IMG/VR virus record: IMGVR_UViG_3300030102_002684
Location: 3,437 to 28,766 of that record
DNA: 25,330 bases
Reading direction: 5' to 3' (one strand)
Source of the DNA: a virus
Shown here: positions 286 through 18,912 of the stretch, one piece after another
Numbering within the stretch: the first letter of the stretch is position 1
How the letters are laid out: each line of letters begins with the position of its first letter
Notes under the pieces: generated by a model
Database searches by the model: none
What the model was told of the DNA's origin: nothing
The model's input: only the letters and a program-made list of their open reading frames with translations
Program-made: the position numbers and the translations under genes

Positions 286-512
286 TAGTCATTTTTTCTT
301 TTTTTACGTTGCTTTTGTTTTTTATTCCACTCATGTCGTAAATAAGCTTGTATAGTAATTTCTTTAGGTTCTACACAGTTATTTATTTTTGTTACTTTTA
401 CTCTATAAGCGTCTAACTTTTCTACTTTTACTTCTACACATTTTTTGATTTTAGCTTCTTGCGCGTTAGTTGTTAGTGTAAAAGCTAATAAAATTATAAT
501 TAATTGTTTCAT
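285..512 (-). CDS. Small secreted protein with signal peptide
   Basis: This 75-aa protein begins MKQLIIILLAFTLTTNAQ, a textbook signal peptide with a probable cut after NAQ, a form common in Flavobacteriia. The mature part of about 57 residues has two cysteines (KKCVEVKV and NNCVEPKE) that could form a disulfide in the periplasm. A strongly basic end follows (WNKKQKQRKKRKND). It overlaps the giant gene by ATGA and its own TAA overlaps the next ATG by one base (TAATG), so it is translated as part of the late operon. I do not recognise the family. A lysis accessory, a periplasmic inhibitor, or a factor in superinfection exclusion are possible, with nothing to choose between them. Confidence 0.72.
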   Translation of the reverse strand: MKQLIIILLAFTLTTNAQEAKIKKCVEVKVEKLDAYRVKVTKINNCVEPKEITIQAYLRHEWNKKQKQRKKRKND

Positions 513-3500
513 GGTTTTATATAATATTGAATTTCGCCACTGGGTCTTTCTACTTGTACATAATCAACACCTAATTTACCCGTTGGCTTATAATGATTTG
601 GTCCTGATAAGGGGATTTTTTTAGTAAATCCCTTACTTTTTATTTCTTTAACTTTCTTTTCGTAATTTTCTTTTACTTTTTCAGCATCTTTGTTTTCTTG
701 ATCTATAGTGCTTTGTCTTCCCCAATATGGTAAACCAAAGTTCCAACCGTTCCAACCCATTACTAAAGCAACTCGCTGCCACATTCTAGTTGACTCATCA
801 GAAGCTTGTCTTAAATTATTTACTTTTTGCAATACTCTATCTATAGGAGCATTAGTAGCAGCAGATATTATTTGAGCTACAGCTAAATAAGCTGGATTGT
901 CTAAGCTCCAACCTCTTTCTTTTATTTCTTTTCTATTAAAAGTAAATGTTCTAGCAGCTGTTTTAAGTTTTCTATATTTAGCGTCAACAACAGAGCTAAC
1001 ATCAAATACATCATCAGGTATATCTCTATAGTCTGGTTTCTTTTTAGTAGTTTCATCAGCTATACGCATTAATATATTCTTAGTTGTAGCTACTATAGCG
1101 CCACCAAAACCAAGACCAAATAATAATGAATCAGTCATACCGTTTGCAATGTTTGCTACTCTTTCTTTTTTTGTTAAGTTTTGTTCTTCTTCATCATCTT
1201 CAAAAGCTAAAGCAAATATAGCTTGCTGCAGCGCGTTAAACATTACGTTTTGTATACCTACATAATAAATAATACTAGATAAATTACTTAAATCACTTTC
1301 ACGCTGAGTCATACCAGGTTTTTTACGTCTATTGTAAAGATCTTGTATAGACTTTTTAGTTTTTCTATTAAACTGCATTGTAACGTTTTGAAACGACAAC
1401 AATATACGTCCAGCAAAACTAGCTTGTTGTGATGATATTTTGCTAGGATTACTTGACTGTTGTGTTTCTTCAGCTACTTGATAAAAATCTTCAAAAGCTT
1501 GTTGATCAGCTTCTGCTTCAGTATACAACTCACCTGTTTTTTCATTTACTCTTTTTAATAAAGCTTTTTTACGATTAATAAAAAATGTAGAACCACCAAG
1601 CGCAATAGCAAAACTATCCATTATTCTAGTAATAGCAAAACCTTTGTCTAACAAATAACTAAAAGCACCTTTAATACCACCTTTTTTAGCAGCATCAGCG
1701 AGTTCTGCTTCGTTAACATTTATTTTTAATCCATCACGTCTATTTACTAGATAATCAGAGTTCATTAACCTCATAAATGTTGGCCACATTTCTTTACTAG
1801 CAAATGCTTTAGCGGCGTTATATATATTATTATCACCCCAATTTATGAAATTTACCGTAGATAATGTTTGTAATAAACCAGATCTCATGTTTAAGAACAT
1901 TACGTTTGCCACAGAAGCATTTAACCAGTCTAACATTTCATTAACTAAACTAGCACCTGCACCAACAATTACAGGTCTGTTATTACCAGACTTCATTCTA
2001 CGTAATGAATCTTTTAAAGCCTCTACATATTTGCTTCCATAAATAGCTTCAAGCTTGTTAAACATTTCAGGAGTAAATATAGCATCAGCATTTTCGTTAA
2101 ACTCTTTCATTAACTGAGCTCTAAAAGAAGTATCTAAACCGTCTAGTATATCATTTTTAATACTACCACCTAACCAATTTTTTCCTGGAGCTGGATAATC
2201 TTTACTTTTTTGAATTAATTGTAATTCATCTGCAAATATATTTAATTCCGGATCTGCTTCAACGGCTTTAACAAGTCTATTTATATCTCGTTTAGACATG
2301 TCTGGTATTTCCATACCTTGTTTATTCCATATATAAACTCTTACAGCTTGTTCTTTGTTAAATGGTCCTCCATCTATTTCTTTTAGTAATGGATTAGCAA
2401 AACTTAGCTTACTACCTTTTAATGTTGGAAACTTGCTTCTTAATGCTGCAAAATCTCTAGCTACAGATACCTTAGCTGATAACAGTTGTTGCTCAGCTCT
2501 ATCATATACATCTACTAAATTATCTTTTATAAACTTTAAATGTTTATTACCTTGTTCGCCTTTACCAACAATAGCATACATTAAACCTAAAAAATCATCA
2601 GCTGATGGTGTTATTGTAAACTGTCTAGCAAATCTTTTTATAAAGCCACCGTCTTTTTTCTTTCCTTCTAATCTTGCTCTTGCTGTAGAGTATTGTTTAA
2701 ATTTACCTACACCTGTAACTTCTTCTATTTGCTTATTAAAATCTTCATTTAATTTTCTAGCTTTACTTTCCTTAGCTTGTTGTACATCATTTTTAACATC
2801 AACAGCATCTAAAACTTGTTTAACAGCTTCTACGTTTGCAAATGAATCATCTGCAAAATAAAAATCATTATATCCTTCAGCTGTTTTGTTTAATACCCAA
2901 TCAACTTTAGCTTGTGGTGAGCCATCTTCTAAACCTGTTATATTTTTTAAAGGTATGTTTATACCTATACTTTTTAAAAATTGCTGTATTGCAGGACCAG
3001 CAGCGTTTGGTCTTGCGGTTAAAACAAATATATCACCTGAACCAAATTTGCCTTGACGTTTTCTAGCTAGATCAGCTAATGGACCTTGTTTTGTATCTGC
3101 TGCAACTTTTTCAAAATTACTAAAATCAAAAGTAGCACCAGCCTCGGTGAGATTACCAGCTTCTCTTGCAAATTCTGCAGCGCTTATTTCTGTTACTTTA
3201 CCATCACGATCAGTAACTATAACTTTTTCTTTAGTCTTAGCCAATGTATCATCAAAATCAAACACGCTAATACCTTTTTGCTCAGGATTAATTTTAGCAG
3301 CATTTTCTTTTGTTTTTAATGAATTAATCATAACATTTTTTTGCTGCTCACTAGTCATGTTTTCTGTAACTATCGGCGTGCCTATACCTTTAGCAAATTC
3401 TCTGGCTCTACTATTTTTAGCCTGTTGTACAGGTATACTTTTCTTTAATCGTGTTTTAGCTTGATTAATATCAAAGTCACTATCTTGCGCTACTTTAAGT

Positions 3501-6500
3501 AGTAATTCATTTTGATAATTTACAGATTCTGGATTATTCCACTCTGATTCTGGCAAAGGTAATCCCATTATTTCAGCAATTGGTTTACCTGTTTTTAAAT
3601 CAGTAATTGTATTTAAATTTATACCAGCAGCAGCTAACCTTACAAAACCTACATTTGGAGTAAAAATACTTGTGCCTTCAGGTATTTTAGCATCTAAACC
3701 TGCTTTATCTAATAAATAGTCAGATTTATTTGATAATTGCACTTGAACAGCATTCGCCTCAATAGCATCCATTATAATATCACTAGCGTTGTTTTTATAA
3801 CCCCAAAGCATTGCAGCTCCAAGTGATGATACTGGTGGTGAGTGCTCTTCTATAGCTCCTTTACCTTTACTTTTTCTTTTACCACCTTCAGCTGCTTCAA
3901 ATTTATTAGACACAGCAGTAAATGGTATAGCTATTTTTAATATACCATTACTAGACTGATAAGCAGATGAAATCATTAACGCAGCATCATTCATTGGTAT
4001 AGTTTTGTTTTGAACACCGTCATTAATAACTTTGTTCATAAACTTCAAAGCGTCCATGTTAATTTTTTCTTGCTCAGCTACAGTTCTTCCGTTATCTAAC
4101 TTTGTATTCCTATTTATCCTAGTTCCTTTAGGTATAGTAATTCTTTGAACATTGTTAAAATTATCTACATTACTTGCGTCATATAAATCATTATTAGCAT
4201 TAGCTACTGCTTTAGCTTCTTTATAAGCAGGATCGCTTTTACCGTAATATAAATCACCTTTTCTAGCAGCCCAATCTGTTCTAGCACTTAGTTTACCGCC
4301 TTTAGTTTTAGTATTAAAATACTGACCATCAGTAGTAACAGCGTATTGTATAGGATTTGCTATACCTGCTTCTATAGCTTTTGCTCTAGTAGGAAATTTA
4401 CGGTTACGATTACCATAAGCCATTTTTCTACCAAAATTAGCTAATTGCAGTTTATCAAACATAGGTCCAGGTATTTTACCTTTTTCAATTGTTTTAAGCA
4501 TATCAGCTTGTCTCGCTTTTCTATTTGAATCGTTGACAGTTACATCGCTTTTTATTTTAAGACTTTCTCTAACTTTAGCTATATCCCTAAGTTCCATTAT
4601 TTTTGAAACATTTTCAGGATTTATTTGATCTATGGTTTTTTGTGGTTGTATTTTTACTTCTGTTTTTGCAGTAGATCTTTTAGATGTTTTAGGAGTTTTT
4701 CTAGCTTTACTGAACTTAGCACCACCGGCTTTTCTTGAAGCAGGATCAGGATTAGCTGTTTCTAAAATACGATTACGTATATGCAGTGATAACAAACCTC
4801 TAATAGTACCAACTTTAGCACTATCTCTATAAATCTTTTTTGTTTGTGGTATTTTAATAAGATCTTTATAATCTTTTAAAGTACCTGTTTTTTTACCGTC
4901 AGTATACAAAGCTTTTTTAACATTAAGTGGTATAAATGTACCTTTACCACTAGCATCTAATGCTTCAGGTAATCTATTAAAATCAGCTTGAGCATTTTTA
5001 TCTAAAAAAACTTTAGCATTTCTTAAACCAGCTTCGTCAGTTACGGAAAAAGTTTGAGATTTATCTGTTAATCTATTAGGATTAGTTATTCCTAACATTT
5101 CTGTATACACCTCTGCAACTTCTTTTGGTATATTTCTAGTTTCAGCTAACTTTACATCTGTTCTACCTGGATATGATTCTTGAACTGCTTCTGTTATTCT
5201 AGTTTCTAATCCAGCTTTATCTGTGTTTACTCTTTGTAATATTTCATCAGAATATGTAGTAGTTTCACTTGGTGTAGGTTTAGTTGTTTCAACTTCAGCA
5301 GTTTCTACTTGTGTAACTGTACCACCAGTAATATCTGGGTTTACTTCAATACCAGCTTTTACTTCATCAACTATAGCCGCGTCAATTTCAGGTTTTCTTT
5401 TTGAAAATGTTTCTTGCATATACGTGCTAACTTGAGCAGCTGCAGATCCACCTTCAGGATCTAATGAAAAACCTTGCAGCGCACTAGTATTTCTTGGTGG
5501 ATATTTTATAGAGCCAGTTTCTACAACTCCAGAACCTTTAAATTCACCAATTAATTGATCTAAAACGATTCTTTTAGCAGCATCCATTTCAGCTTCGCTG
5601 TTGATGTTTAAATTTTTACTTATTAAAGGCCAGTTTTTTTCTAACAAAGCTTGAGCCAGTGGTATTGCCACCGCTTTATTTTCTTTATTTTGTGAAAGTT
5701 CAGATATTAATCCTTGTTGTAAAATATTATTAGGTGTTTCCATGTAAGGATCAGCTAATTCTCTTAATTCTCTAGCTCTAGACTCTCTATTTGTTTGACC
5801 CGTAGCAATACCTCTTCTCGATGCTCTAGTTACTATTTCGCCTTCTGCTGATCCTTCTAATAGTTTTCTTTGAGCCCTGTTTAATTTTCCTTTTTCTATA
5901 CTTTTATTATAGTCTTTTAAGAAATTAACTACATCTTTACCTTCGTTAAATCTTATATTTTTAATTCCCATAGACTGCAATAGTCTTCTGAGCATGTCTT
6001 TAAAACCTTGTATAGCACCTTCATTTAATTGTATATCACCTCTAGCTAAACCATCAGCAAATAATATTAATGCTTCTTCAGAAAACTCAGTTGAAGGCTT
6101 GTCTAAATATTGCATTAAATTTTGACCATATTCAGAATCTAAATCTATACCTTCTACATCTATAGACTGTAGATACTTATTCATTTCAGTTTGCATTTCA
6201 GTAGCAACTTCTGGATTAGCGTCTAAAGTTTTCTTTAAAACACTATGTAAAAATTCATGAGCACCTACATTTACATTACCTACAAATCCACTTTTACCAG
6301 CTGCTACTTCATTGTTTATAAGTAAAACTTCTTTTCCAGTTTTTTCATTTACCATTTGTACACCATGACTATTACTAGCTGCTGCTTTAGTATAACCTTC
6401 TTTTTCTAATTGATCTGCTATTTCTTGAGCTTCTTTAGCGCTTTGCACATCTCTAAACTCAATCATAGGATTTCCATCAGAATCTTTTGGCCCAACGTCT

Positions 6501-9280
6501 GATATTATTTTTCTTACATTACCAGAGGTATTATATAATTTTTGCTCTGCTACTACGTCTCTTAGCTGCTTTTTAACTTCTTTTAATCTTGCTTCTTGCT
6601 CTACTGTTAAATCTGAATCATCTATTTGTTTTATTTCTCGCTGAAGTTTGTTTCGCTCAACCATTAAGTCAAGCTGTCTAGTTCTAACGCTTTGATCTGC
6701 ATTAGCATCTATTTTTAAACCTGCATTACGAGTATCAGCTAACGTTTGTGATTCTTCTTTATATTCAGCTTCAGTTATTTGTTCATTAGCAAGTTTAGTA
6801 TCTAAATTAGTTTGAGCTGAATCAAAATATTTTTCTACTTCTATAGCAAATTTACCATATTTAGAATCTGGTGCAAATTTAATAGCTACATCTCGCGATA
6901 CATTTCTTATTTCAACAGCTGTTTGAGTAGCTACACTGCTTGCAAATGGTATCATTACACCTACTACACCACCAGCTTTTCCAGCTTCTAAAGAAGCGCC
7001 CCAGTCTAGTTGTTCAGTCATAGAACCTCCTCCTTGCAAACCAGTACTTATTTGCCCTAATACTTCCTGTGAAAATTCTGTAGCAAACTCTGTTAATCCC
7101 GCTTCACCTTTACGTAAGGCAGATCTTAATAATGCTTCACCACTATCTTTCCAAGATCCTTTATAAAAAGATACTAAACCACCTTTTCCTAAACCTAAAG
7201 CCTCTTCTGTTTTTGATAGTATTTTATTAGCACCTATTTGTTCTGCAAGCGTCATAACACCAGCAAACGCCGCAGACGTAGCCATATTAGCATGTTTTCC
7301 TTCTTCTAATGCTTTTATTTCAAAAGCTCTTCTTTCTTCTGGGGTCATAGAGTTTAGATCAATGCCCATTGCTTTAGCATCTTTTTGTATACCTTCTTGA
7401 TATGCAGACCAATAATTATCTCCATACATTTGAGTAAACATTGCCGCTGTTCCTAAACCTGCTAAAACAGGATTACCAGTAAGTGTACCACCCACAGCTA
7501 AACCAATTTGAGGTAAAGCTTCTGCTGTTACAAATACAGCATCTTGAAAACTAATACCATCAGATAAATCAGCTGACTTAAACAAACTAGTAAGCTGTTC
7601 ATCTTCTTTAATACTATCAAATAAATTTTCTACATCTTTTTTTTGCTCCATTAATTCTAATAAAGGAGTCATTATTTTTCCACCATCAACGTATTCTTTA
7701 TTTTTAAGTTTTTCCCCTTCTTCAGCAGATATTTCACCGCTTCTAACTCTTTCATTTATCTTATCTATTTCACGTTGAGCTATTCTTACGCCTTTAGCTT
7801 CTACACTAGCTAGTGCTTTTTTACCGGACGAATATATATTAAGACCTCCTTTTGCAACACCTTCAATTAAATTAGCTAAAGTATCATTAAAAGGTATAAA
7901 ATCATTTTCACTTCCTCTTAACGCATCTGTACGGCTAAGAAAATAATTTTGAGATCTTTGATAAGCTGTACTGGTTTGAGACATAGCTCTATCCATAACT
8001 GTACCTAAATCAGTTAATCTTTGTTTATAAAGATTAGAGCCTTCAAACTTGTCTAAAGTTATACTTCTTGCATATGCCTCTAGATCAGCATTAGCCGCGT
8101 CAACACCTTCTTTAGTTGTTAAGTCGTATTTATTACTAGCTAAAAGCTCGTTTTCATATTTTTTTATATCAGCGGCAGCGGCTTTTTGAATAGAATCCCA
8201 AGCTGTAGACAAAATTTCATCATTCATAACAAACTCCCTATATGATTCTTTCATGGTGTTATCTAAATCATCTTGATTTGATATACCTGAGAAATCATCT
8301 GGTAAATAAGTTAAAGCTTTTTGTAAAGCTGGCTCAGAAACTTTTGAAGCTTTTCTTACTTCAATTCTTGTTTTACCACTACCAATTATATTTTCTTTTG
8401 TTTTATCAGCTTTTTTACTTTTGCTTTCGTTATAAGGAGCTATTAATTCACCTCTTTGTGATCTTAATTCATTTATTTTAGTTAATGTTTGATCATATTT
8501 GGTTTTCATATTACCATAAGGCATGCCTGTTTTTTGATTTGTCATACCTCGTAATGATGATGTAAGAGATTCAAGATTGTCTTCAATCTCCATAAATTTT
8601 TTGTAATTATTAAAATCTTCGTCACTATCAAATCTTGCTCTAACGTCTTCTTCGTTCATTGTAGACCAAGTTACAGAGTTATCTCGCCACTCATCTTCAA
8701 TATTTTGAATAACCACTTCTTCATCAAATTCTTCTATTAATGGTGCTGGTTTAATTTTTGATTGAGCTTCTAGTTTTTGTTGAGTAGTTAAATTAGGATC
8801 TTCACTTATTTTTTTAGTAGCTTCAAGAAAGTTTTTATTTTCTTGATCATATTGAAATTTTAATAATTCCTTATCTTGTTGCATTTGTTCAGCTCTTTCA
8901 GCTTCTTCATCAAAGTCAAAAATACCAAAAGTAATCATGTCAGCGAAAGCATCATAACCACCTGAAGTATCTACATCAGCATAACTTTGATCAGTTCTAG
9001 TATTAGCATTTAACCAAGCTACTTTTTCTTCGTTAGTAGCATTAGCAGCTTGATTATATAAATCTTCTTCTTCATCACTCATAAATGCAGAACGTTTAAG
9101 AGCAGGGTTATATCTTGCGTATAAAACATCTACTTGGTTTTGCTCTGGAGTAGATTCAACTTCTTCTACTTCTTCAACTTCAGGTTGAGGATTTTCTGCT
9201 CGCCACGCTCTAAGCCTTTCATCTTTTTCATCAGGTGTTAGATTTTGAGGCAAGGATAGCGAAAATTCTAATTCTGTCAT
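509..9280 (-). CDS. Giant polyvalent ejection/cargo protein with metallopeptidase-like and HAD-phosphatase domains
   Basis: This 2923-aa protein fills about a third of the window. Residues 1-330 are acidic and helical. About 583-620, 660-690 and 765-790 are hydrophobic and glycine-rich. HEFLH at 1008-1012 with glutamates near 1068-1069 resembles a zinc metallopeptidase. About 1500-1550 is basic linker. About 1560-1990 is an uncharacterised region with a histidine-containing motif (AIEEHSPPVSSLGAAMLW). About 2003-2165 is a HAD domain with D2008, D2010, T2012, T2088, K2125 and D2144-D2145. The C-terminal 700 residues are helical (MLDWLNASVANVMFLNMRSG, about 2445) with hydrophobic segments near 2663-2694 and 2717-2740. 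Such mosaics are known as large polyvalent or cargo proteins, packed in the head and injected. T7 gp16, by comparison, is about 1300 aa. Its TGA overlaps the next ATG (ATGA). The role is inferred; the motifs are seen directly. Confidence 0.82.
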   Translation of the reverse strand: MTELEFSLSLPQNLTPDEKDERLRAWRAENPQPEVEEVEEVESTPEQNQVDVLYARYNPALKRSAFMSDEEEDLYNQAANATNEEKVAWLNANTRTDQSYADVDTSGGYDAFADMITFGIFDFDEEAERAEQMQQDKELLKFQYDQENKNFLEATKKISEDPNLTTQQKLEAQSKIKPAPLIEEFDEEVVIQNIEDEWRDNSVTWSTMNEEDVRARFDSDEDFNNYKKFMEIEDNLESLTSSLRGMTNQKTGMPYGNMKTKYDQTLTKINELRSQRGELIAPYNESKSKKADKTKENIIGSGKTRIEVRKASKVSEPALQKALTYLPDDFSGISNQDDLDNTMKESYREFVMNDEILSTAWDSIQKAAAADIKKYENELLASNKYDLTTKEGVDAANADLEAYARSITLDKFEGSNLYKQRLTDLGTVMDRAMSQTSTAYQRSQNYFLSRTDALRGSENDFIPFNDTLANLIEGVAKGGLNIYSSGKKALASVEAKGVRIAQREIDKINERVRSGEISAEEGEKLKNKEYVDGGKIMTPLLELMEQKKDVENLFDSIKEDEQLTSLFKSADLSDGISFQDAVFVTAEALPQIGLAVGGTLTGNPVLAGLGTAAMFTQMYGDNYWSAYQEGIQKDAKAMGIDLNSMTPEERRAFEIKALEEGKHANMATSAAFAGVMTLAEQIGANKILSKTEEALGLGKGGLVSFYKGSWKDSGEALLRSALRKGEAGLTEFATEFSQEVLGQISTGLQGGGSMTEQLDWGASLEAGKAGGVVGVMIPFASSVATQTAVEIRNVSRDVAIKFAPDSKYGKFAIEVEKYFDSAQTNLDTKLANEQITEAEYKEESQTLADTRNAGLKIDANADQSVRTRQLDLMVERNKLQREIKQIDDSDLTVEQEARLKEVKKQLRDVVAEQKLYNTSGNVRKIISDVGPKDSDGNPMIEFRDVQSAKEAQEIADQLEKEGYTKAAASNSHGVQMVNEKTGKEVLLINNEVAAGKSGFVGNVNVGAHEFLHSVLKKTLDANPEVATEMQTEMNKYLQSIDVEGIDLDSEYGQNLMQYLDKPSTEFSEEALILFADGLARGDIQLNEGAIQGFKDMLRRLLQSMGIKNIRFNEGKDVVNFLKDYNKSIEKGKLNRAQRKLLEGSAEGEIVTRASRRGIATGQTNRESRARELRELADPYMETPNNILQQGLISELSQNKENKAVAIPLAQALLEKNWPLISKNLNINSEAEMDAAKRIVLDQLIGEFKGSGVVETGSIKYPPRNTSALQGFSLDPEGGSAAAQVSTYMQETFSKRKPEIDAAIVDEVKAGIEVNPDITGGTVTQVETAEVETTKPTPSETTTYSDEILQRVNTDKAGLETRITEAVQESYPGRTDVKLAETRNIPKEVAEVYTEMLGITNPNRLTDKSQTFSVTDEAGLRNAKVFLDKNAQADFNRLPEALDASGKGTFIPLNVKKALYTDGKKTGTLKDYKDLIKIPQTKKIYRDSAKVGTIRGLLSLHIRNRILETANPDPASRKAGGAKFSKARKTPKTSKRSTAKTEVKIQPQKTIDQINPENVSKIMELRDIAKVRESLKIKSDVTVNDSNRKARQADMLKTIEKGKIPGPMFDKLQLANFGRKMAYGNRNRKFPTRAKAIEAGIANPIQYAVTTDGQYFNTKTKGGKLSARTDWAARKGDLYYGKSDPAYKEAKAVANANNDLYDASNVDNFNNVQRITIPKGTRINRNTKLDNGRTVAEQEKINMDALKFMNKVINDGVQNKTIPMNDAALMISSAYQSSNGILKIAIPFTAVSNKFEAAEGGKRKSKGKGAIEEHSPPVSSLGAAMLWGYKNNASDIIMDAIEANAVQVQLSNKSDYLLDKAGLDAKIPEGTSIFTPNVGFVRLAAAGINLNTITDLKTGKPIAEIMGLPLPESEWNNPESVNYQNELLLKVAQDSDFDINQAKTRLKKSIPVQQAKNSRAREFAKGIGTPIVTENMTSEQQKNVMINSLKTKENAAKINPEQKGISVFDFDDTLAKTKEKVIVTDRDGKVTEISAAEFAREAGNLTEAGATFDFSNFEKVAADTKQGPLADLARKRQGKFGSGDIFVLTARPNAAGPAIQQFLKSIGINIPLKNITGLEDGSPQAKVDWVLNKTAEGYNDFYFADDSFANVEAVKQVLDAVDVKNDVQQAKESKARKLNEDFNKQIEEVTGVGKFKQYSTARARLEGKKKDGGFIKRFARQFTITPSADDFLGLMYAIVGKGEQGNKHLKFIKDNLVDVYDRAEQQLLSAKVSVARDFAALRSKFPTLKGSKLSFANPLLKEIDGGPFNKEQAVRVYIWNKQGMEIPDMSKRDINRLVKAVEADPELNIFADELQLIQKSKDYPAPGKNWLGGSIKNDILDGLDTSFRAQLMKEFNENADAIFTPEMFNKLEAIYGSKYVEALKDSLRRMKSGNNRPVIVGAGASLVNEMLDWLNASVANVMFLNMRSGLLQTLSTVNFINWGDNNIYNAAKAFASKEMWPTFMRLMNSDYLVNRRDGLKINVNEAELADAAKKGGIKGAFSYLLDKGFAITRIMDSFAIALGGSTFFINRKKALLKRVNEKTGELYTEAEADQQAFEDFYQVAEETQQSSNPSKISSQQASFAGRILLSFQNVTMQFNRKTKKSIQDLYNRRKKPGMTQRESDLSNLSSIIYYVGIQNVMFNALQQAIFALAFEDDEEEQNLTKKERVANIANGMTDSLLFGLGFGGAIVATTKNILMRIADETTKKKPDYRDIPDDVFDVSSVVDAKYRKLKTAARTFTFNRKEIKERGWSLDNPAYLAVAQIISAATNAPIDRVLQKVNNLRQASDESTRMWQRVALVMGWNGWNFGLPYWGRQSTIDQENKDAEKVKENYEKKVKEIKSKGFTKKIPLSGPNHYKPTGKLGVDYVQVERPSGEIQYYIKP

Positions 9281-9286
9281 TTAATT

Positions 9287-10390
9287 TTATTTACGTGGAT
9301 TTCTTTTTAAAAAAGCTTCAGCTTGTTTTTTCTTACCCTCTTCTAAATCAAACACTGCCGCATCTGCTTTAACAGTAGGAATTTGATTAGTAGTAAATTG
9401 TTTTAAGTAATTATTCATAAAATATTCTTTATATTTAGTCATAAATAATTCTTTTTTATCTTGTTGTAATGGTAAATCTTTTTCATAATCCCAAGCTACA
9501 AAACCAGCGTTAGCATTTTGTGCCATTTGATCATCTTCCGAAACGCTAGTATCAGCACCAATAAACACGTTCCAAGCTGCAACTACTGATTGCTCAGAGC
9601 TTAACATACCTGCAACTTCTGCATTTATAAACGGTGTTACTTTTCTTTCGATTTTATCTAAATCAAATTTAAGTAAATTTCTACCTTTACCATTACCAAT
9701 GTCTACTATTTCATAATCATAACTACCATCAGAATTTTTTAATACAAACTCATCTGCTATTTTAGCTTTAGGCATTAATTCACCTGTTTCAGGATTAGTT
9801 GATCCTCCTGCCATAACTCCTACTTCACTTAATAATCTAAGCATGTCTTTGTTAACATCAGGAGTTTCAGCAATTATACCTGTGCCTGAGTCTAATAATG
9901 TTTCTAATGCAGAGCTATTTATAATAAAAGGTTTTTCTAATAAAGGTCCTTTAAATATTATAGTTTGACTACCATCTTCATTTAAATACAAAGATACATC
10001 GTAGCCATCACTTTTAGCAAATGTAGGTTTACCGGTAAGTATAGCGTTTGCTACAGAATATTTATAATGCTGATTAACATCATAATAGTTGTCATCAGTA
10101 ATAATTAGTTGAGATCCAATGTTTGTTAAAAAGTCTAAAGATTTTTGAGGAGCTTCCATTAATCTATTTAATTGTTGGTTTTCCATAAAACAAGTAGGAT
10201 CTTGGCATGTATTATTTTGTATAATAGTTTTTAATTTTGCATATAGTTTACCAGTATTTTCATAAGCTCTATCTAATAATTTAAAATTATAATTAGGTTG
10301 ACTGGCAACATAAGCATTGTTATATCCAAGTGCGTTACTCTTGTTTAGTTGTTTTATAAACAGATTAATTTTTATATTTTTATCTTCCAT
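9287..10390 (-). CDS. Unknown protein, probable virion component
   Basis: I do not recognise this 367-aa protein. It starts with a lysine- and asparagine-rich segment (MEDKNIKINLFIKQLNKSN). A Cys pair lies at about residue 62-67 (TCQDPTCF), and a beta-rich middle (DVSLYLNEDGSQTIIFKGP) precedes acidic helical stretches (VTPFINAEVAGMLSSEQSV followed by VAAWNVFIG). The end is basic (EGKKKQAEAFLKRNPRK). There is no signal peptide or clear membrane segment. Ten bases separate it from the preceding ejection-type gene and six from the giant gene, so it is very likely co-expressed with them. A virion or ejection-complex component is the simplest guess; a chaperone for packaging the giant protein is possible. 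Confidence 0.75.
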   Translation of the reverse strand: MEDKNIKINLFIKQLNKSNALGYNNAYVASQPNYNFKLLDRAYENTGKLYAKLKTIIQNNTCQDPTCFMENQQLNRLMEAPQKSLDFLTNIGSQLIITDDNYYDVNQHYKYSVANAILTGKPTFAKSDGYDVSLYLNEDGSQTIIFKGPLLEKPFIINSSALETLLDSGTGIIAETPDVNKDMLRLLSEVGVMAGGSTNPETGELMPKAKIADEFVLKNSDGSYDYEIVDIGNGKGRNLLKFDLDKIERKVTPFINAEVAGMLSSEQSVVAAWNVFIGADTSVSEDDQMAQNANAGFVAWDYEKDLPLQQDKKELFMTKYKEYFMNNYLKQFTTNQIPTVKADAAVFDLEEGKKKQAEAFLKRNPRK

Positions 10391-10400
10391 TATAATTTAT

Positions 10401-11066
10401 TTATTCACTAGAAAAATCAGCGCTACCTATTAAACTAGCAGCGGCTCCAATACCACCAGTTAATGCAGCTGTTGCATCTGCGTTAGCTTGTGCCGCGGCA
10501 CCACGTAAAGCACCGATCTGATTAGATAATCTATTAAGTTGTTGCATTTCTCTTGCTTCTTGTTGTTGAAAAGTAAACTGAGCACCTGAAACATCTGCTT
10601 GTTGTTGTCTTCTAGCTTCGGACATACGTTGTTGCATCAGCGTAGCTTCACCTTGAGCTCTTTGCTTTTCGTTAGCTGCTTCTTGAGCTTCAATATTAGC
10701 AGCAACTCCTTTTTTGGCTTGCAACGCCGCTTGTGCTAAAGCCGTTGCTCCACCAGCACTACCACCTGTAGCTCTAATAGTATCTAGTGTGTTAGCTAAA
10801 GCAATATCAGTTTGCTCCATTTGCATTTCGGTAGATTTAGTTGCTACAGACAAATTTGCAAACGGATTTGAAAGCATTGAGCTTAAATCGGTTATATTAG
10901 CATAAGGATCAATAATTTCTTGTCTATTAGCTTCTAATTCATTTAGTTTAGATTCTAAAGCTCTAGCTTGATTTTCTCTACGTCTTGCTTCTCTTCTAGC
11001 TCTACTAGAACCGAAAATACCACCTATGACACTAACTGCGCCACCTATAATTGCACCTGCTGCCAT
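10401..11066 (-). CDS. Small internal virion / ejection-type protein
   Basis: This 221-aa protein begins with a glycine/alanine-rich hydrophobic segment (MAAGAIIGGAVSVIGGIFG) and an arginine-rich patch (SRARREARRRENQARALE). A long Q/A/E-rich helical middle follows (about residues 35-185, for example AANEKQRAQGEATLMQQRM), and the end is another Ala/Gly-rich hydrophobic stretch (LTGGIGAAASLIGSADFSSE). Hydrophobic ends around an alpha-helical body are the usual look of podoviral proteins ejected into the cell envelope (P22 gp7 or T7 gp14 type). Position after the tail tip and before the giant protein fits. It is probably packaged in the head or tail and forms part of the trans-envelope channel. 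No enzymatic motif was seen. Confidence 0.6.
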   Translation of the reverse strand: MAAGAIIGGAVSVIGGIFGSSRARREARRRENQARALESKLNELEANRQEIIDPYANITDLSSMLSNPFANLSVATKSTEMQMEQTDIALANTLDTIRATGGSAGGATALAQAALQAKKGVAANIEAQEAANEKQRAQGEATLMQQRMSEARRQQQADVSGAQFTFQQQEAREMQQLNRLSNQIGALRGAAAQANADATAALTGGIGAAASLIGSADFSSE

Positions 11067-11081
11067 TTATTTAAATTTTTA

Positions 11082-12584
11082 TTAATATCCATTATTTGAA
11101 TCAAATTTTGCTCCTACAGAAAATAAAGTTTTTAAACCTCCTTTATTAGTAACTTCGTCAGTTGAAAAAGTTGCTGTAGTATAATATCCTTTTATTCCAC
11201 TTATAGCATTACCAAATATAATTTCTCTATTTGTAGTAAAACTATTGTTTATTACGTTTGCTACGTAATGATTTTCTTTTCTAATAAAACCAGCATTGTA
11301 TCTGTCTAGTGCTGGGTTTTCTGTACCAAATACAGCTGCATATCCTGCGCCATATACTCCTCCAGCAACAGCACTTACAACCGCTCCGCCCGCAGGATTA
11401 AACACATATTCTCCTTCATAATAACTTGGTATACTAGCAGTTATATCATTTGTAAATTCAAAGTTTCCGCTTATATTTTTATCTTCACCTGTTTCATCTG
11501 AAATTAAAGAGTTTAATCTCCAACCGTTACTTCCTTCATAGCCAATTGTACTAAATGTTTTAGATCTTGTAGGCTCAGGATTAAACACAACAGTTATAGT
11601 ACTTGGATATTCTACATCGTAAAATTGACCTCTTGGAACGTTGATACTGTAGTGTTGATATAAACTAGAAGCTGTAGTACTATAAAAATTATTTCTTAAA
11701 CTAAACATTTGATCAGGCCTGTAATCAAACAAACTTGTCCAACCTTGAACTCCTTCATCATATGCTACAGTGTTATATTCTGTCTCTGATGATTTTATTT
11801 CATCTTGTTGTTGTAAAGATATTACATATTGTTGATTATATATATCCCAACCACCAACTGCTTTACCTCTTATAGCATTAATATCTAATTCATTTAATTT
11901 ATCTCTAAAAAAGTCTCTCATACCTAATTGAGATATTTCAACTATATTACCGCCTCGTAGTGATAAAACAACATTATTGTTTTTATCTGTAAAATACTTA
12001 TTAGTTCCATATATGGCAAAACTTTCTGGGTTTTTACTTATACCATATTTACCTGGAACTGGTTGTATAACTCCAATAACTAAATTACTCGATGTAACAT
12101 TTGGATTACCTTCTGCAGTAAAAATAGCGTCTTTATCTATTAACGCTCTACTTACTTTAAGTTCTTGGAATATATTTAAATTAGTATCTTCTGCATAAAG
12201 TTTTTGTATACTACCATTTGCTGGATCAGCAGCTTTTTCAATATCATCAGCGGTGCTAAATACATTAGTATTGTTTATTCCAGTTCTAGAGTTAAATATA
12301 CCTGAATATATTAAAGCATTAAATCTTATATAACCAGCTGGTTCTTCTTCTACTAAATAAGCTTTTGCTCCATAATCTGTGGCTGTATTATTAAAACCAC
12401 CTCTTATTCTAGCTTCTTCAATTGCAAAGTCTTCACTATCTATACCTGCTGTAGTAACGGGATAACCGCCAGGCAAAGTAGCTGGTATACCAAAAGATCC
12501 GTTCCAAATAAGATCATTACCAGCATTTATTATCTTCTTCAATACAAAAGAGTTAAAAAACTTTACTTCAACTACTGCTCCCAT
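11082..12584 (-). CDS. Tail protein, propeller-like; probable partner or split-off part of the muzzle protein
   Basis: This 500-aa beta-rich protein contains GKAVGGWDIYNQQYVISLQ at about residues 240-258 and YDEGVQGWTSLFDYRPDQ followed by MFSLRNNFYS at about 273-300. It continues with VEYPSTITVVFNPEPTRSK and IGYEGSNGWRLNSLISD. I associate this string of motifs with the C-terminal propeller and fold of large tail proteins in Bacteroidetes phages, where it usually sits in the same polypeptide as the N-terminal part seen in the preceding gene. Here the two are separate, in different frames, with 19 bases between stop and ATG. The last 100 residues include YHVAN-like and VGAKFDSNNGY segments of unknown role. 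The start ATG lies in a TAATAATAATTATG leader without Shine-Dalgarno. Functions in the virion tail tip are inferred. Confidence 0.65.
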   Translation of the reverse strand: MGAVVEVKFFNSFVLKKIINAGNDLIWNGSFGIPATLPGGYPVTTAGIDSEDFAIEEARIRGGFNNTATDYGAKAYLVEEEPAGYIRFNALIYSGIFNSRTGINNTNVFSTADDIEKAADPANGSIQKLYAEDTNLNIFQELKVSRALIDKDAIFTAEGNPNVTSSNLVIGVIQPVPGKYGISKNPESFAIYGTNKYFTDKNNNVVLSLRGGNIVEISQLGMRDFFRDKLNELDINAIRGKAVGGWDIYNQQYVISLQQQDEIKSSETEYNTVAYDEGVQGWTSLFDYRPDQMFSLRNNFYSTTASSLYQHYSINVPRGQFYDVEYPSTITVVFNPEPTRSKTFSTIGYEGSNGWRLNSLISDETGEDKNISGNFEFTNDITASIPSYYEGEYVFNPAGGAVVSAVAGGVYGAGYAAVFGTENPALDRYNAGFIRKENHYVANVINNSFTTNREIIFGNAISGIKGYYTTATFSTDEVTNKGGLKTLFSVGAKFDSNNGY

Positions 12585-12603
12585 AATTATTATTACATAT
12601 TTT

Positions 12604-15600
12604 TTATATTATTTCTAAAACATAACCAGTTGTATCTATTACAGGTCCTACATCCCACTCCGTGGGAATATTGTTATCATTATAATCTTCACAATTTTCT
12701 ACTTGCTGTGAACAACCACTTGCCAACGCCATTGCTCTCAAGGTGTCAAAATCACTACCACCACCTAAAGGTGCATAGAAAAAGTCCACTTGACAATTAG
12801 CTGGAACTAATGTTGAAGTTGCTGCGTTTGTTCTATCTACTGTAATTGTTGTGCTACTATTTGTTAACTGGTTAAATGATCCATGAAACAAATAATAACC
12901 ATTATCAGCTGGGTCAGTAGCATTATCAATAAATATTTGACAATAAGGATCTGGCTGAAGGGTGTTGTCAGGACCAGGACAAACTCGGAATATTTCACGT
13001 ACTCCAGGTTCTGGAGTTCCTGTTCCTAAAGCTCCTACTTCATTTAAAATAACTTGATAACTTTCAGAACTAGCTTCAGCCGCATCTACGTATTCAAGAG
13101 TTAAACTATAATTAGCTACAGGTATTGAAGAATTGCTAAACGATATTTGATTAACTAATTCATCAGTAATATTGTCAATAAAAGATGTAGAATTAAAATA
13201 CAACCCAAAATCATCAGAATTTACAGGTGTTATTACACCATTTACATCAAAAGACATAGCTGTTATTAAAGCGGTTAAATCTTGAGCTCGTAAATCAGAG
13301 TTATTAGCCCCATTATTTCCTCTTGTTTCAAACAACACGCTAGTATCTAGTCTATCTGTAGTAACTGGAGAAATTGCTGGTGTTATAATAGGCGCTATAT
13401 TTCCAGGTCCTCTATTAGTAATAGGAACTTGAACATTTGTTGTTTCACCATCATAAACAGTAGTTATATTAAATAAAAAGTTAAATAACCTTTGTTCAGC
13501 TACATATTCAAAAAATACCGCATTATAATAATCAGTAGTAGTTTCTACTTGAAACTTTATTTCAACATCACCTACTACACCATCTTGAACTAAATTAAAA
13601 TAATTATCAACATTATTTCCAGGAGTATTAGCGTCAGTAACTGACATTGTAACTGTTAATTGAGTTAATAAAGGATCAGCAGTATCTATTGGCACTCCAA
13701 ATAAATCTACTATTTGAAATTCAGTATCTAAAATATCACCACCACTAGCAAGTCCTTCGTCCCAACTACCAGTATCAAAAGAACTAATATCTGCTCCACC
13801 TTGACTTTCTGATAAAACTAAAGAGTTTAAATCGCTAATTAATCCACTAGTAGCTGTTTCCCAATATATATCTAAATTAGATACAACTGGAGAAGTTTCA
13901 TAAATACCTAAATATTGTAATCCAGGCAGTATTAACGATCCTTGATTAGCAGTGTCACTAGCTCCAGGAGTTATATATAAAACATCACCTTCTTCAAGAA
14001 CAGCTCTAAATGTACCACCATTTTCATCTACTAATGTTAGTACATCAGTACCACCTGTTCCAGTACCAATGGCAAAATTACTAACAACTATTCCTTCTGG
14101 CAAATTAGCACCTGTTACTAAATCAAACGGTTCAGGTGCAAATCCTACTGAAGCAACAGGAATAGTATTTACCTCGACTGTTGAACTACCAGGACTAGCT
14201 ATACTAGTTGCTACGGTACAAGCAAATGGTTCATAGTTAGTGTTTGACGTTTGACCTATTTTATTTTCTGTGCTTATTTTAGCTATTAATGGATTAGAAT
14301 TTACTTGGTAAAATTGTGGGAAAAAATTAGGTTTTGGTGGATCAATAGGATCATAATCAAATAAATCAACAACTGTTGATATAGTTGAAACAGTATCAGA
14401 CTGTCTACCAGGATAATATTGTTCGTTAGATTGTCCCATGTTAATAGCAACTATAAAATCTTCTACATCATCTTCATAGTTAATAAGCTGATTAGTATTT
14501 TGAACTCTACCAAACAGCTGTACAGAACTTCTAAACTGTCTTTGAGTTGGTCCAACTTCATTTAAATCTCTAGGTACTTTATTTATATTGTCATTTATTA
14601 AAACAACATGTGATGTTTGATTTACTTCTAGTGTAATATCTTCAGGATAAGCAGCCATAATACCAGGTAAATATACATTGTAATATTCTTGCTCTGTTTG
14701 CTTTACAACTATTTTATAAGAATACCAACCTAGCGGATTATAATCTACGCTACTAACATCACCATTATATAAACCTGGATAATAAGTTTGAGGTATTTTA
14801 GCTGTAGGACTAATAGGATCATTAAATAAAACTTTTAATGAATTACCAGGCCAATTAACTTGTTCAGTTCCATCTGGCAAATATGCTGAATAAACAGTAT
14901 CACCAATAAACGAAGCTCCGCTTGGAAGTGTAACTAACTCTTTATTATTAGATAATATAACAGATGATTGTCTTCCATATCTATCTGAAAGTACAACTCC
15001 AACTTGATAATTTCTATTTTGTTTTAAAGTATGATTTGGATATTCAACTATACTTGTAGTATTTACATCAGGTCCAACAGGATTAAATGTTACTGCAATA
15101 TTACCTAATGAAACACTTTGATCTAATGTTATAAATGTAGCTCCATCAGTATCTGTAACAGTTCCAATATTTACACCGCCAACACTAGCTGTATCTCCAA
15201 TGTCTATATCACCAGTCACACCAGTTATAGTAAATGTAGTTCCTGTTGTTGGAGGAGTTGGTTCATCTATTGTTGCTGTAGCAATATTAAGATCAAATTG
15301 AGACTTATCACTAACTGATACATTGTAGTTTAATGTTTGAGGAGGAGTGTGTTTATTTAAATAATTACCATAAATAACTCTATTGCCACTTAATTCTTGA
15401 GCTAAAGCTCTAACAGGTATTTTATCAAAAACTCTTGTTATTTCATTACTCGGTAATGTTTTAATAGGTTTTTTAGATAAATAATCAAAAACATAAAAAC
15501 TTTGAGTACCACTTTCAGTTTCAATAGTATCTATTGTAATTGTATCAACTACTCTTAATGCTAATCCATCAGATTCTTTTTGTACTATTTCTAATTCTTT

Positions 15601-16857
15601 TATTTTTAAATTATTTCTAATTTCATCAGCTCCAAAAGGTAAAGGTATTATTAATTTTACTTCATCTACTTTATTTTCCATAAACTCGACAATAGTACTC
15701 TGATAAGCAGTAGCCATATCATCTTTATCTATATTAGGATTATTTTGTTTTTTATAAATAAAATAACCATCTTGTTTAGGAATAAATGCTATTTGAGTAA
15801 AAGGAGCTAATATAGAATATTCATTATCTTCATATCTAAATCTATAACTAAATCTAACAAATTTATCATCTAAATAAGCTGGATCACCCGCGAAATTACA
15901 GTCATAATATGGATTAGGATTTATTAACACTTCGTCACCAATAGATACAGCGTAAGGTAAAGCACTTGTTGTAATGCTAGTAGGAGCTGCGCTAGGTGTT
16001 GGAGGCGTTGCTGCTGTAAAACTTATATTTGTTAAATCAGCAAAATCATCTTTTAAACATCCATTGTTAGTTAAAAAACCTACTTTACTATCAGGATAAG
16101 CACTAAGTAATGTTGAGCCAGGTAAGCATTCTTTCCAACCATTATAAGTAGAACTATTTACAGCTATTGAGAAACTTCCTGCTGCTGAAGGTGCAGCTGC
16201 TTCAAAAGTAGCACCATTAGGTAGAACTTTACTAGTTACATCTTTCATTGTGGTTTCATATTCACCACTGCTTGTTTGTTGCCACAAAGTTATAGCTTCA
16301 TATGGGTTATATTTAGCTACAGATATTTGATCTTCATTAGTGTAATGAGGATTAGGTGAATTATAAGGATTAGCTAAAGCTTTTTCTAAATTTATTACCC
16401 TAGGTTGATTTCTATTATCAGTCCAAAATAATAAGTTTTCTACTATATTTGCACCAAAAATAGGATTTGTAGTAGAAAAATTTAAATAATTACCTTGTAA
16501 TAAAACAGTACTAGTATTATTAAAAGCATCGAACTTAATTATTTGGCTTAAGTTTCCAGGCGTGTAAGTAAAGTTTAAAGGATTAGGATCGGTATATGAT
16601 GTTAAAAATAAATAAGCGCAATTGTTTAAATCATCGGTTACATATCCAATACAAGTTGCACTTATTTTACTCAAACCGCTATCCCAGTCAAATATTTTTT
16701 CATTACCTAATGTATTTTCTAATTCACCTACATCAGGACCTTCTGATTTACTAACTTGAATATTTCTAGCATCTCTATACTCTCCATTTGGTATTAAACG
16801 GGCTTCTAGGTCTTTATTTAATTTTCCTTTAACAAAGGTATTAACTATTCTAGCCAT
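12604..16857 (-). CDS. Large tail muzzle/nozzle-like protein with beta-sandwich insertions
   Basis: This 1417-aa protein has the start expected of the propeller-type tail tip of short-tailed phages (T7 gp12, P22 gp10, crAss-like muzzle): VNTFVKGKLNKDLEARLIPN, then YRDARNIQVSKSEG, and LLFWTDNRNQPRVINLEKAL at about residues 140-162. It would form the distal tube through which DNA exits. The rest is almost all beta-rich and full of T, S, N and D. A Thr/Gly/Asp-rich segment (about 535-600) and others at about 875-960 and 1140-1260 look like inserted Ig-like or beta-sandwich domains, perhaps host-surface binding. The C-terminal 130 residues contain several cysteines (CPGPDNTLQPDPYCQIF, GCSQQVENCEDYND). 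It is followed after 19 bases by a gene carrying motifs that I would expect in the same propeller family. Confidence 0.7.
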   Translation of the reverse strand: MARIVNTFVKGKLNKDLEARLIPNGEYRDARNIQVSKSEGPDVGELENTLGNEKIFDWDSGLSKISATCIGYVTDDLNNCAYLFLTSYTDPNPLNFTYTPGNLSQIIKFDAFNNTSTVLLQGNYLNFSTTNPIFGANIVENLLFWTDNRNQPRVINLEKALANPYNSPNPHYTNEDQISVAKYNPYEAITLWQQTSSGEYETTMKDVTSKVLPNGATFEAAAPSAAGSFSIAVNSSTYNGWKECLPGSTLLSAYPDSKVGFLTNNGCLKDDFADLTNISFTAATPPTPSAAPTSITTSALPYAVSIGDEVLINPNPYYDCNFAGDPAYLDDKFVRFSYRFRYEDNEYSILAPFTQIAFIPKQDGYFIYKKQNNPNIDKDDMATAYQSTIVEFMENKVDEVKLIIPLPFGADEIRNNLKIKELEIVQKESDGLALRVVDTITIDTIETESGTQSFYVFDYLSKKPIKTLPSNEITRVFDKIPVRALAQELSGNRVIYGNYLNKHTPPQTLNYNVSVSDKSQFDLNIATATIDEPTPPTTGTTFTITGVTGDIDIGDTASVGGVNIGTVTDTDGATFITLDQSVSLGNIAVTFNPVGPDVNTTSIVEYPNHTLKQNRNYQVGVVLSDRYGRQSSVILSNNKELVTLPSGASFIGDTVYSAYLPDGTEQVNWPGNSLKVLFNDPISPTAKIPQTYYPGLYNGDVSSVDYNPLGWYSYKIVVKQTEQEYYNVYLPGIMAAYPEDITLEVNQTSHVVLINDNINKVPRDLNEVGPTQRQFRSSVQLFGRVQNTNQLINYEDDVEDFIVAINMGQSNEQYYPGRQSDTVSTISTVVDLFDYDPIDPPKPNFFPQFYQVNSNPLIAKISTENKIGQTSNTNYEPFACTVATSIASPGSSTVEVNTIPVASVGFAPEPFDLVTGANLPEGIVVSNFAIGTGTGGTDVLTLVDENGGTFRAVLEEGDVLYITPGASDTANQGSLILPGLQYLGIYETSPVVSNLDIYWETATSGLISDLNSLVLSESQGGADISSFDTGSWDEGLASGGDILDTEFQIVDLFGVPIDTADPLLTQLTVTMSVTDANTPGNNVDNYFNLVQDGVVGDVEIKFQVETTTDYYNAVFFEYVAEQRLFNFLFNITTVYDGETTNVQVPITNRGPGNIAPIITPAISPVTTDRLDTSVLFETRGNNGANNSDLRAQDLTALITAMSFDVNGVITPVNSDDFGLYFNSTSFIDNITDELVNQISFSNSSIPVANYSLTLEYVDAAEASSESYQVILNEVGALGTGTPEPGVREIFRVCPGPDNTLQPDPYCQIFIDNATDPADNGYYLFHGSFNQLTNSSTTITVDRTNAATSTLVPANCQVDFFYAPLGGGSDFDTLRAMALASGCSQQVENCEDYNDNNIPTEWDVGPVIDTTGYVLEII

Positions 16858-16863
16858 TAAATT

Positions 16864-18102
16864 TTAGTGTTTTATCCATTTAGATTTACCACGCATTACT
16901 TGAGTAAACTCTTCTAGCTTGATATTAGATAATCTTATTTTAGCGTTTCGTAAAGCAGCGTATCTATCTTTTTTATATCTTTGAACTATTCCTTCTGGTT
17001 GATTTGCTCTAACTGATACAATGTTATATAATATGCTTTTATACATCGCTTCTTCAGCTAATTTAGGTACTTTAGTATCTAAATCATAAGCTAATCCATC
17101 AGATATATATTCTATAACAATTAATTTATTTAATAAGTTACTTGAAAAAGTAAATTTATTTTCTCTTTCATTAATACCAAACCAACCATTAAAATTACTT
17201 CTTTGTGGTTCAATACCATATAATCTACCCCAGTTCCATGGTCCATTTAAACTCCACAAGTCTGGATTAGCATATCCAAAAAATTCAAAATCTGCATACC
17301 AACTTCCGTTTATAAGTCTTTGGTTTGCTTTTTTCCATCGCTCTTCGGTTATTGAAGTTCCTTCTATATTTTCACCAAAATTATCTTGAGTAGGAATACC
17401 TGCATTGTCTTGTATATTTGTATAATATGGATCAATAGTTAAATTATTTGCAGGATAAATAGGGTGTTTAACTCCTAAACGATCTATCCAAGATAATGAA
17501 ACATAGTTAACATAATCTTGAGGTATTACTAAAGACAATGAATCTGGTATTGTTAATTCAGTAGATTTAATACTTTTTAAAGTGTCATAACTAAACTCTT
17601 GTAAACTTCTTTTAGCAAAAAATACAACGTCAGATTTTTTACATTTTTGTATAACTTTACCATCACCAACATAACCAACCATAAAGTTATTAACTATATC
17701 AATTAATTTTACATATTGATAGCCACCATAATTATCTTCTACTGTTTGTCCAAAAGCTTTTTCTTGTTCTGTTTGACCATATAATCCTCCATCTAATTTT
17801 TTTAATTGAACAGCTATATATGTTCCAGCAGGCGGTTCTAGTCCTACAGCAAATATAATTTTATTATTTTCAACGCTGTAAGGTTCAGGTAGTCCAGCTA
17901 CTTCTACATAAGTTCCAGGCATACCTGTAGCGCTAGAATAAACTTTAAAATTATTTCTACCATAATCAATAGCATTAGGATCTGATGTAAAAAAAACTAA
18001 ACCAGTATCAAAAGTAGTTTTATACTCTGTAGCAGCTCCTGCAGATTGAAATATCTGTGCACCTTGATAATATTGCGCGTTTGTTTCTAGTATTTGTTCC
18101 AT
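16864..18102 (-). CDS. Ring / tail-tubular protein
   Basis: This 412-aa protein is probably the second ring of the short tail. Visible landmarks are DIVNNFMVGYVGDGKVIQK at about residues 136-155, FAKRSLQEFSYDTLKSIKS, a conserved-looking aromatic stretch (NPDLWSLNGPWNWGRLYG), KLIVIEYISDGLAYDLDTK, and a basic C-terminus with LSNIKLEEFTQVMRGKSKWI followed by K-H. A terminal R-G-K-S-K-W-I-K is, to my memory, typical of crAss-like and related tail ring proteins. The N-terminal 120 residues look beta-rich. Coupling to the preceding gene by a one-base overlap fits two subunits needed in fixed ratio. Only 6 bases separate its stop from the start of the large tail protein. Confidence 0.68.
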   Translation of the reverse strand: MEQILETNAQYYQGAQIFQSAGAATEYKTTFDTGLVFFTSDPNAIDYGRNNFKVYSSATGMPGTYVEVAGLPEPYSVENNKIIFAVGLEPPAGTYIAVQLKKLDGGLYGQTEQEKAFGQTVEDNYGGYQYVKLIDIVNNFMVGYVGDGKVIQKCKKSDVVFFAKRSLQEFSYDTLKSIKSTELTIPDSLSLVIPQDYVNYVSLSWIDRLGVKHPIYPANNLTIDPYYTNIQDNAGIPTQDNFGENIEGTSITEERWKKANQRLINGSWYADFEFFGYANPDLWSLNGPWNWGRLYGIEPQRSNFNGWFGINERENKFTFSSNLLNKLIVIEYISDGLAYDLDTKVPKLAEEAMYKSILYNIVSVRANQPEGIVQRYKKDRYAALRNAKIRLSNIKLEEFTQVMRGKSKWIKH

Positions 18103-18866: not shown

Positions 18867-18886
18867 TCTAATATTTTTATTATAAT

Positions 18887-18912
18887 ACAAAGGCAGCAAG
18901 CGCTGCCCTTAT
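18887..18912 (-). terminator. Strong hairpin in gap before ring-protein gene
   Basis: On the minus strand ATAAGGGCAGC pairs with GCTGCCTTTGT around a four-base GCTT loop, giving an 11-pair stem with two G-T wobbles and a six-pair perfect core (GGCAGC/GCTGCC). It begins about 15 bases after the stop of the 273-aa gene and ends 20 bases before the next ATG. The downstream sequence (ATTATAATAAAAAT) is not a U-tract, so an attenuator, mRNA-stability or processing element is more likely than full termination. Confidence 0.5.

Follow-up and report, generated by a model that had tools for sequence, protein, structure and literature searches.

N4 gp50 is a loosely connected, multi-domain chain of ~3,500 aa that is ejected along with companion ejection proteins (PMC12633501), and in phiCrAss001 the products of genes located after the muzzle gene (gp45, gp46, gp47, gp49 and gp50) make up cargo that was detected in virions and is ejected in the published model (PMC10172136). 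Polyvalent proteins, described by Iyer et al. (2017), combine unrelated enzyme domains in one chain; their zincin metallopeptidase (MPTase) is built from a three-stranded sheet, a HEXXH helix and a next helix carrying a Glu, and it has been proposed that the zincin of such a chain processes it, inside the head or once in the host (PMC5512222). Nowhere does the main text of that paper use the terms sigma, phosphatase, haloacid or polynucleotide kinase (PMC5512222). In T7, the structural genes end with gp14, gp15 and gp16, a small, a middle and a giant gene in that order.

Here we analyse a 25,330-nucleotide stretch of viral DNA (the window; G000:C1:3437-28766) taken from a linear 39,239-bp IMG/VR virus record. 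It encodes a giant protein, P0001, in one uninterrupted frame of 2,923 codons at 509..9280 on the minus strand, as given by the ORF listing and the translation, while the plus strand across the same interval contains stops throughout. Homologues of the same size class are also single-frame in the 73 viral contigs retrieved by close sequence similarity, and the P0001 ORF is therefore real and far beyond chance. A preliminary description of this DNA had reported a single-frame giant of 2,923 aa about twice the size of T7 gp16; both statements hold, as T7 gp16 has 1,318 aa. Its acidic, hydrophobic, peptidase-like and phosphatase-like parts are likewise all found, as a net charge of -24, four hydrophobic segments, an HEFLH motif and a set of HAD motifs. 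The description had the gene and its parts right but gave neither the strand nor the phage group and overlooked a segment resembling region 2 of sigma-70 factors.

P0001 closes a head/tail operon as its final large gene. The large genes of the window all lie on the minus strand, as do the window's features given below, and nearly abut. In order of transcription, the genes leading to the giant encode the portal, an acidic 403-aa protein, the major capsid protein, a 273-aa protein, a 265-aa ring-like protein, 412-aa and 1,417-aa tail proteins, a 500-aa muzzle-like protein, and proteins of 221 and 367 aa. The portal protein (22573..24981) matches PHROG 6547 (2e-139) and the portals of Flavobacterium, Cellulophaga, Maribacter and Tenacibaculum phages, and the major capsid protein (19832..21319) matches PHROG 13704 (1.1e-87) and shares 40-46% identity with its counterparts in Elemovirus, Panino and MW202828. 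The ring-like structural protein (18102..18899; PHROG 14543, virion structural protein, 2.6e-20) takes its name from its place in the operon, and the 412-aa tail protein (16864..18102) matches PHROG 13977 (1.2e-42). The 500-aa muzzle-like tail protein (11082..12584) matches Pfam crAss_MUZ_C over the cut-off (6.7e-10) and PHROG 14478 (1.2e-39). The 1,417-aa tail protein (12604..16857) is probably the remainder of the muzzle, and in L025 and L029 one 1,491-aa ORF replaces both genes. More generally, the muzzle-like protein appears to be split here into two genes (1,417 + 500 aa, 11082-16857) and by one ORF of 1,096-1,491 aa in L025, L029, L052, L053 and L055. With genes for a portal, a major capsid protein, a ring-like protein and a muzzle-like protein ahead of the giant, the earlier assignment of the giant to an operon of virion genes is borne out. 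Outside the window and upstream of the structural genes, the minus strand of the contig also encodes a 102-aa protein with a metallopeptidase-like NHEMVHIDQM motif (L003:6776-7084).

Two smaller genes separate the muzzle-like gene from the giant. The first, of 221 aa (10401..11066), has hydrophobic N- and C-terminal segments and an HMM match to phi38:1 gp99 (1.2e-8). The second, of 367 aa (9287..10390), is the middle gene of the trio and adjoins the giant upstream; a gene of 360-701 aa occupies the same place in the relatives examined, and the middle gene has no significant match.

By its sequence, the window's phage is a marine flavobacterial podovirus of the Cellulophaga phi38:1 / Elemovirus kind. 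Capsid and portal searches returned flavobacterial phages plus one uncultured spring phage and nothing else, with relatives in Elemovirus, the Pervagoviridae (Cellulophaga phi38:1/phi40:1), the Pachyviridae (phi13:2/18:3/19:3) and Maribacter Panino; Tenacibaculum Gundel was matched by the portal alone. Gundel and Calle are podoviral in TEM (PMC8776804). Nishimura et al. placed phi38:1, phi40:1 and IAS virus in an environmental-genome "group 2" (PMC5332604), in which GroEL genes and one sigma-70 gene were noted (PMC5332604). GroES-like and GroEL-like frames lie at the end of the window's contig, outside the window (L003:10607-11240), and are consistent with relatives of phi38:1 and of "group 2".

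To place the giant in a family, we extended the set of 73 close relatives by profile search. The C-terminal module is encoded in at least 598 viral contigs, and the enlarged set comprises 120 non-redundant giants, 104 of them complete, with lengths of 2,017-3,323 aa (median 2,813) and, among those examined, no split giants. The giant mostly sits right behind the muzzle-like, 219-350-aa and 360-701-aa genes, and the order 1,417-aa gene, muzzle, 221-aa gene, middle gene, giant is retained with few exceptions wherever enough upstream sequence is available. Fifteen matches fall in contigs of bacterial or archaeal MAGs. As the same phage genes flank the giant in most of those with long flanks, these look like binned phage contigs; MAG labels such as Woesearchaeota, Aliivibrio and Maricaulis (L085-L089, L091, L094) probably reflect binning contamination. 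Mean column identity is roughly 10-30% over residues 1-1000 and 54-78% over residues 2165-2850, so that conservation increases toward the C-terminus. Pfam, PHROG and PDB searched directly with P0001 gave nothing significant. A set of 50,697 phage genomes searched by tblastn with P0001 yielded no match; homology to the giants of cultured phages emerged with family profiles only. No entry in the libraries searched describes the whole protein.

The N-terminus (residues 1-150; 8831..9280) is acidic, with a net charge of -24, and poorly conserved. Hydrophobic segments lie near residues 580-610, 765-791, 2548-2568 and 2711-2741, the first two within a Gly/Ala-rich, partly hydrophobic module (residues 550-860; 6701..7633) whose HMM matches the giants of cultured flavobacterial podoviruses: elemoE gp18 (1.7e-20), phi38:1 gp101 (9.5e-19), phi19:3 (6.1e-18), phi18:3 gp123 (9.5e-18), phi13:2 (1.1e-17) and Panino (2.8e-14). 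Shuffled sequences gave no matches to this HMM. Strong homology to the cultured giants is confined to residues 550-860; elsewhere elemoE and MW202828 alone match, in the zincin. Both marks of the Pervagoviridae, Pachyviridae and Elemovirus giants, the homologous module and the operon position, are found in P0001, and the module is probably an old, shared virion part. In MW202828, an uncultured spring podovirus, the operon ends in a giant of 3,859 aa with two HExxH motifs (L078:741-12320); its annotation as "reticulocyte binding/rhoptry protein" is probably misleading.

The records of phi40:1 gp099, gp100 and gp101 and of phi18:3 gp123 carry the remark "annotation based on experimental MS/MS proteomics analysis". 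The three phi40:1 genes are the positional counterparts of the 221-aa gene, the 367-aa gene and the giant, and the phi40:1 giant is 99.9% identical to that of phi38:1. Because these counterpart products were detected in phi40:1 and phi18:3 virions, a virion role is well supported, and by homology over ~300 residues together with synteny P0001 is probably packaged too. The earlier proposal of a podovirus-type virion protein at the ejection-protein position is thus upheld. That the gene encodes an early intracellular host-takeover protein merely located at the end of a late operon is very improbable: its enzyme domains are of a type expected for takeover, but it shares the strand of the structural genes and nearly abuts them, with gaps of 6-20 bp, and homologues are detected in virions. 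We also consider it unlikely that P0001 is a structural or scaffold-like virion protein (an internal core or tape-like component) that never enters the host and whose enzymes serve maturation within the particle, the zincin for example as a prohead-type peptidase. MS/MS demonstrates virion presence alone, and a head-maturation protease would account for the conservation of the zincin; however, the gene follows the muzzle rather than adjoining the capsid genes, and further evidence against such a role comes from the enzyme domains themselves. Our preferred reading is that this marine flavobacterial podovirus likely packages P0001 in its virion as a "polyvalent" ejection protein that acts in the host after entry.

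The first of these domains is a predicted zincin-like metallopeptidase (residues 930-1105; 5966..6493) with a conserved HExxH...E signature, in which HEFLH spans residues 1008-1012 (6245-6259) and the third ligand is E1069 (6074-6076) in the zincin Glu helix. H1008, E1009, H1012 and E1069 are complete in 36 of 42 relatives, and E1009 and E1069 are present in all 42. The AF2 model (in its own numbering) has strands at 81-86, 114-119 and 125-130, the HExxH helix at 146-162 and a helix at 204-221 bearing E210, so that motif and secondary structure correspond to those described by Iyer et al. for the MPTase of polyvalent proteins (PMC5512222). The elemoE zincin matches that of the P0001 family (2.5e-7), and the best PDB profile matches are zinc endoproteases, at a non-significant E of 0.14. 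In six of the 42 relatives (L004, L045, L030, L048, L054, L073) the first zinc His is replaced, by Glu in four and by Gln and Phe in the others, and the catalytic Glu and third-ligand Glu are kept; these proteins are possibly inactive or altered peptidases.

The second is a HAD-superfamily phosphatase domain (residues 1998-2172; 2765..3289), with motifs running from DFDDT (2008) to DD (2144-2145). Motifs I (DxDxT), II (T), III (K) and IV (DD) are invariant in alignment A6. All catalytic positions are present in 30 of the 42 relatives; in most of the others the whole set is missing together. PHROG 415 (polynucleotide kinase) matches the domain in 15 members, at up to 3.7e-7, and the NCBIfam matches are to HAD-IA (1.8e-4) and DNA 3'-phosphatase (5.8e-4), with printed scores under the curated cut-offs; the PHROG 415 and DNA 3'-phosphatase matches suggest a nucleic-acid phosphatase. 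The conserved catalytic residues of both domains support the peptidase-type and phosphatase-type assignments made earlier. In about a dozen relatives, including L047, L049, L052, L055 and L075, the HAD is missing from its aligned position and its flanks are kept, indicating modular gain or loss. Each domain seems dispensable, since 6/42 relatives are without the first zinc His and 12/42 without intact HAD residues. A HAD that comes and goes in an unchanged operon argues against the purely structural role considered above, and both the HAD and the sigma-2-like part discussed below would make little sense within a particle.

Preceding the HAD is an alpha/beta domain (residues 1700-1960; 3401..4183) with a near-invariant EEH (1811-1813), in which E1812 and H1813 are invariant in alignment A7. 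It is confidently modelled, with pLDDT of 93-98 over most of its length, and has no match in Pfam, PHROG or PDB; scanning with residues 1681-1960 as a single sequence retrieved no relatives. An EHxxP-like appearance prompted us to consider an HNH-like nuclease, for which Pfam, PHROGs and PDB give no support. The most conserved part of the giant is an all-helical C-terminal module (residues 2165-2850; 731..2788), for which AF2 gave a model of middling confidence (mean pLDDT 71, pTM 0.57). Its fold matches in BFVD are to proteins labelled PolyVal ART and Large polyvalent protein-associated domain and to structural proteins of Gundel_1 and elemoC, and PDB fold searches with both AF2 models returned nothing at E <= 0.001.

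Between the zincin and the HAD lies a candidate sigma-70 region-2-like segment (approximately residues 1200-1305; 5366..5683), identified by profile matches of relatives. In sigma factors, region 2 comprises core helices with an FDPxxGxFxTY-type motif. For L073, the corresponding stretch hits PHROG 1025 (RNA polymerase sigma factor; 1.7e-5), and for L047 (0.00076), L208 (0.0022), L049 (0.0024) and L096 (0.01) the highest-ranking Pfam family is Sigma70_r2, each time under the 24-bit cut-off. As the best Sigma70_r2 score in the giants is 19.7 bits against this curated cut-off of 24, we call the segment "sigma-2-like" and do not file it as a sigma factor. In six-frame searches of the L047 and L049 contigs, the sole Sigma70_r2 match falls within the giant (9.9e-6 and 3.2e-5). 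When 35 aligned cellular sigma factors were compared by hhalign with slices of the giant's family, slice 1165-1345 was the best of 32, scoring 28.4 against 20.7 for the next non-overlapping slice, over 74 columns at a probability of 18%. The best match to a region-2 HMM falls 90-430 residues past the HExxH in 27 of 50 giants versus 6.6 expected and 4 of 53 reversed controls, counts that are not independent because the giants are related to each other. The best PDB profile match, the sigma factor WhiG, is not significant (E 0.46). P0001's own segment is a weak match with a poor AF2 model: no library identifies it as a sigma factor, and the Sigma70_r2 search of the window contig was negative. 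The segment aligns no better with standalone phage sigma factors than with cellular ones, and the sigma-2 search of the cultured giants was negative. The sigma-2-like segment is new here and, with several profile tests behind it, moderately supported; in our judgement, homology to sigma region 2 is somewhat favoured, and a sigma-type function is less likely than not.

A standalone sigma-70 protein of 251-261 aa is encoded, one each, in 12 other contigs of 50-77 kb (L219-L230, in G001, G002, G003, G004, G006, G007, G008, G011, G013, G020, G021 and G022). These proteins share a conserved M(K/R)KYN..NY.R(Y/F)K start, and eight of the 12 score above the Pfam Sigma70_r2 cut-off. Given these standalone factors, phage-directed use of the host RNA polymerase fits the biology of the group. 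They also bear on the idea that P0001 is itself a virion RNA polymerase delivered by ejection, comparable to N4 gp50 or to the cargo polymerases of crAss-like phages. Its size, its place behind the muzzle and the accompanying zincin, as in the N4 vRNAP (PMC5512222), would speak for this idea. Such an activity is disfavoured and most improbable, because P0001 is without DxDGD/DFDxD, the few chance matches in its relatives are at non-conserved positions, Pfam, PHROG and PDB give no polymerase match, and the sigma-70 genes in the 12 longer relatives point to host RNA polymerase use. A PF00940 search gave no match in these genomes or in the control genomes and is hence not evidence of absence.

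Taken as an ejection protein, P0001 would be made late and packed in the particle with the products of the two upstream genes, and all three would then leave by way of the portal and muzzle, either before the DNA or together with it. Extrusion may resemble the partial-unfolding model for crassviruses (PMC10172136) or the beads-on-a-string model for N4 (PMC12633501). The zincin would probably cleave either P0001 or a protein of the host, upon entry or afterwards, and the HAD would probably remove phosphates from nucleic-acid 3' ends or from nucleotides in the cell just infected. A general polyvalent-protein module, probably serving packaging or translocation, would make up the helical C-terminus, and the segment between the zincin and the HAD may attach to the RNA polymerase of the host in the manner of sigma region 2. 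What we observe directly is the gene with its conservation and its conserved catalytic residues, the order of the operon and remote homologues in virions; packaging of P0001 itself, its ejection, membrane passage, cleavage and substrates, and any sigma activity are inferred. A more speculative extension, which we regard as doubtful, is that the virion delivers a sigma-like domain within a giant ejected chain, that the zincin frees this domain, and that host RNA polymerase is thereby sent to the first phage promoters before phage expression. The literature searched, which included few subscription journals, gave no report of a virion-carried sigma factor. If true, this would be a sigma-based alternative to the ejected RNA polymerases of N4 and crAss-like phages and to T4 Alt; a working sigma-2-like segment would give phages a further route for bringing transcription control in the particle. 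If ejected, P0001 would also be a ready model for a ~300-kDa chain passing a podovirus tail. The cultured relatives phi40:1, phi18:3, Calle and elemo allow tests of virion localisation and ejection, with the caveat that the cultured giants searched are without the sigma-like part.

Among the closest known systems are the giants encoded by the last operon gene of phi38:1/phi40:1 (gp101), phi18:3 (gp123), phi13:2 (gp127), elemoE (gp18) and Panino (CDS0069), the same position as that of P0001. These have 1,691-3,694 aa; the Cellulophaga ones show no zincin, HAD or C-terminal sequence match, and the cultured giants searched show no sigma-2-like match. The T7 succession of small, middle and giant gene also closes the structural genes here, with P0001 more than twice as large as gp16 and no sequence similarity found. 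The likeness to gp16 drawn in the preliminary description therefore stands for position and size but does not extend to sequence: the upstream genes, when compared with T7 gp14/gp15, showed no similarity, and Pfam and PHROG profile searches revealed no lysozyme/transglycosylase family in P0001. N4 gp50 is, like P0001, a giant with a zincin (PMC5512222), whereas P0001 has no detected polymerase. The phiCrAss001 cargo likewise lies behind a muzzle gene, as P0001 does in a window with a crAss_MUZ_C match; that cargo includes RNA polymerase subunits (PMC10172136), and its likeness to P0001 is positional. Having no transglycosylase, P0001 is not classed with T7 gp16, nor, as no polymerase was found, with the N4 vRNAP.

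The polyvalent proteins of Iyer et al. 2017 (PMC5512222) offer the closest general description, as P0001 also holds unrelated enzyme domains, the conserved zincin and HAD, in one chain, and its modelled C-terminal fold appears to resemble that of proteins so labelled in BFVD. Named polyvalent-associated Pfam domains were not found in P0001 at the cut-off; LPD38, the LPD searched directly, had no match in the window contig and an LPD38-like match below the cut-off in the Panino giant (1.8e-5). P0001 is a real, widespread and conserved protein of a known general kind, with the sigma-like part possibly a new ingredient. It is best filed as a polyvalent virion protein that would work like others of that kind and occupies the genomic place of T7 gp16, N4 gp50 and the crassvirus cargo.
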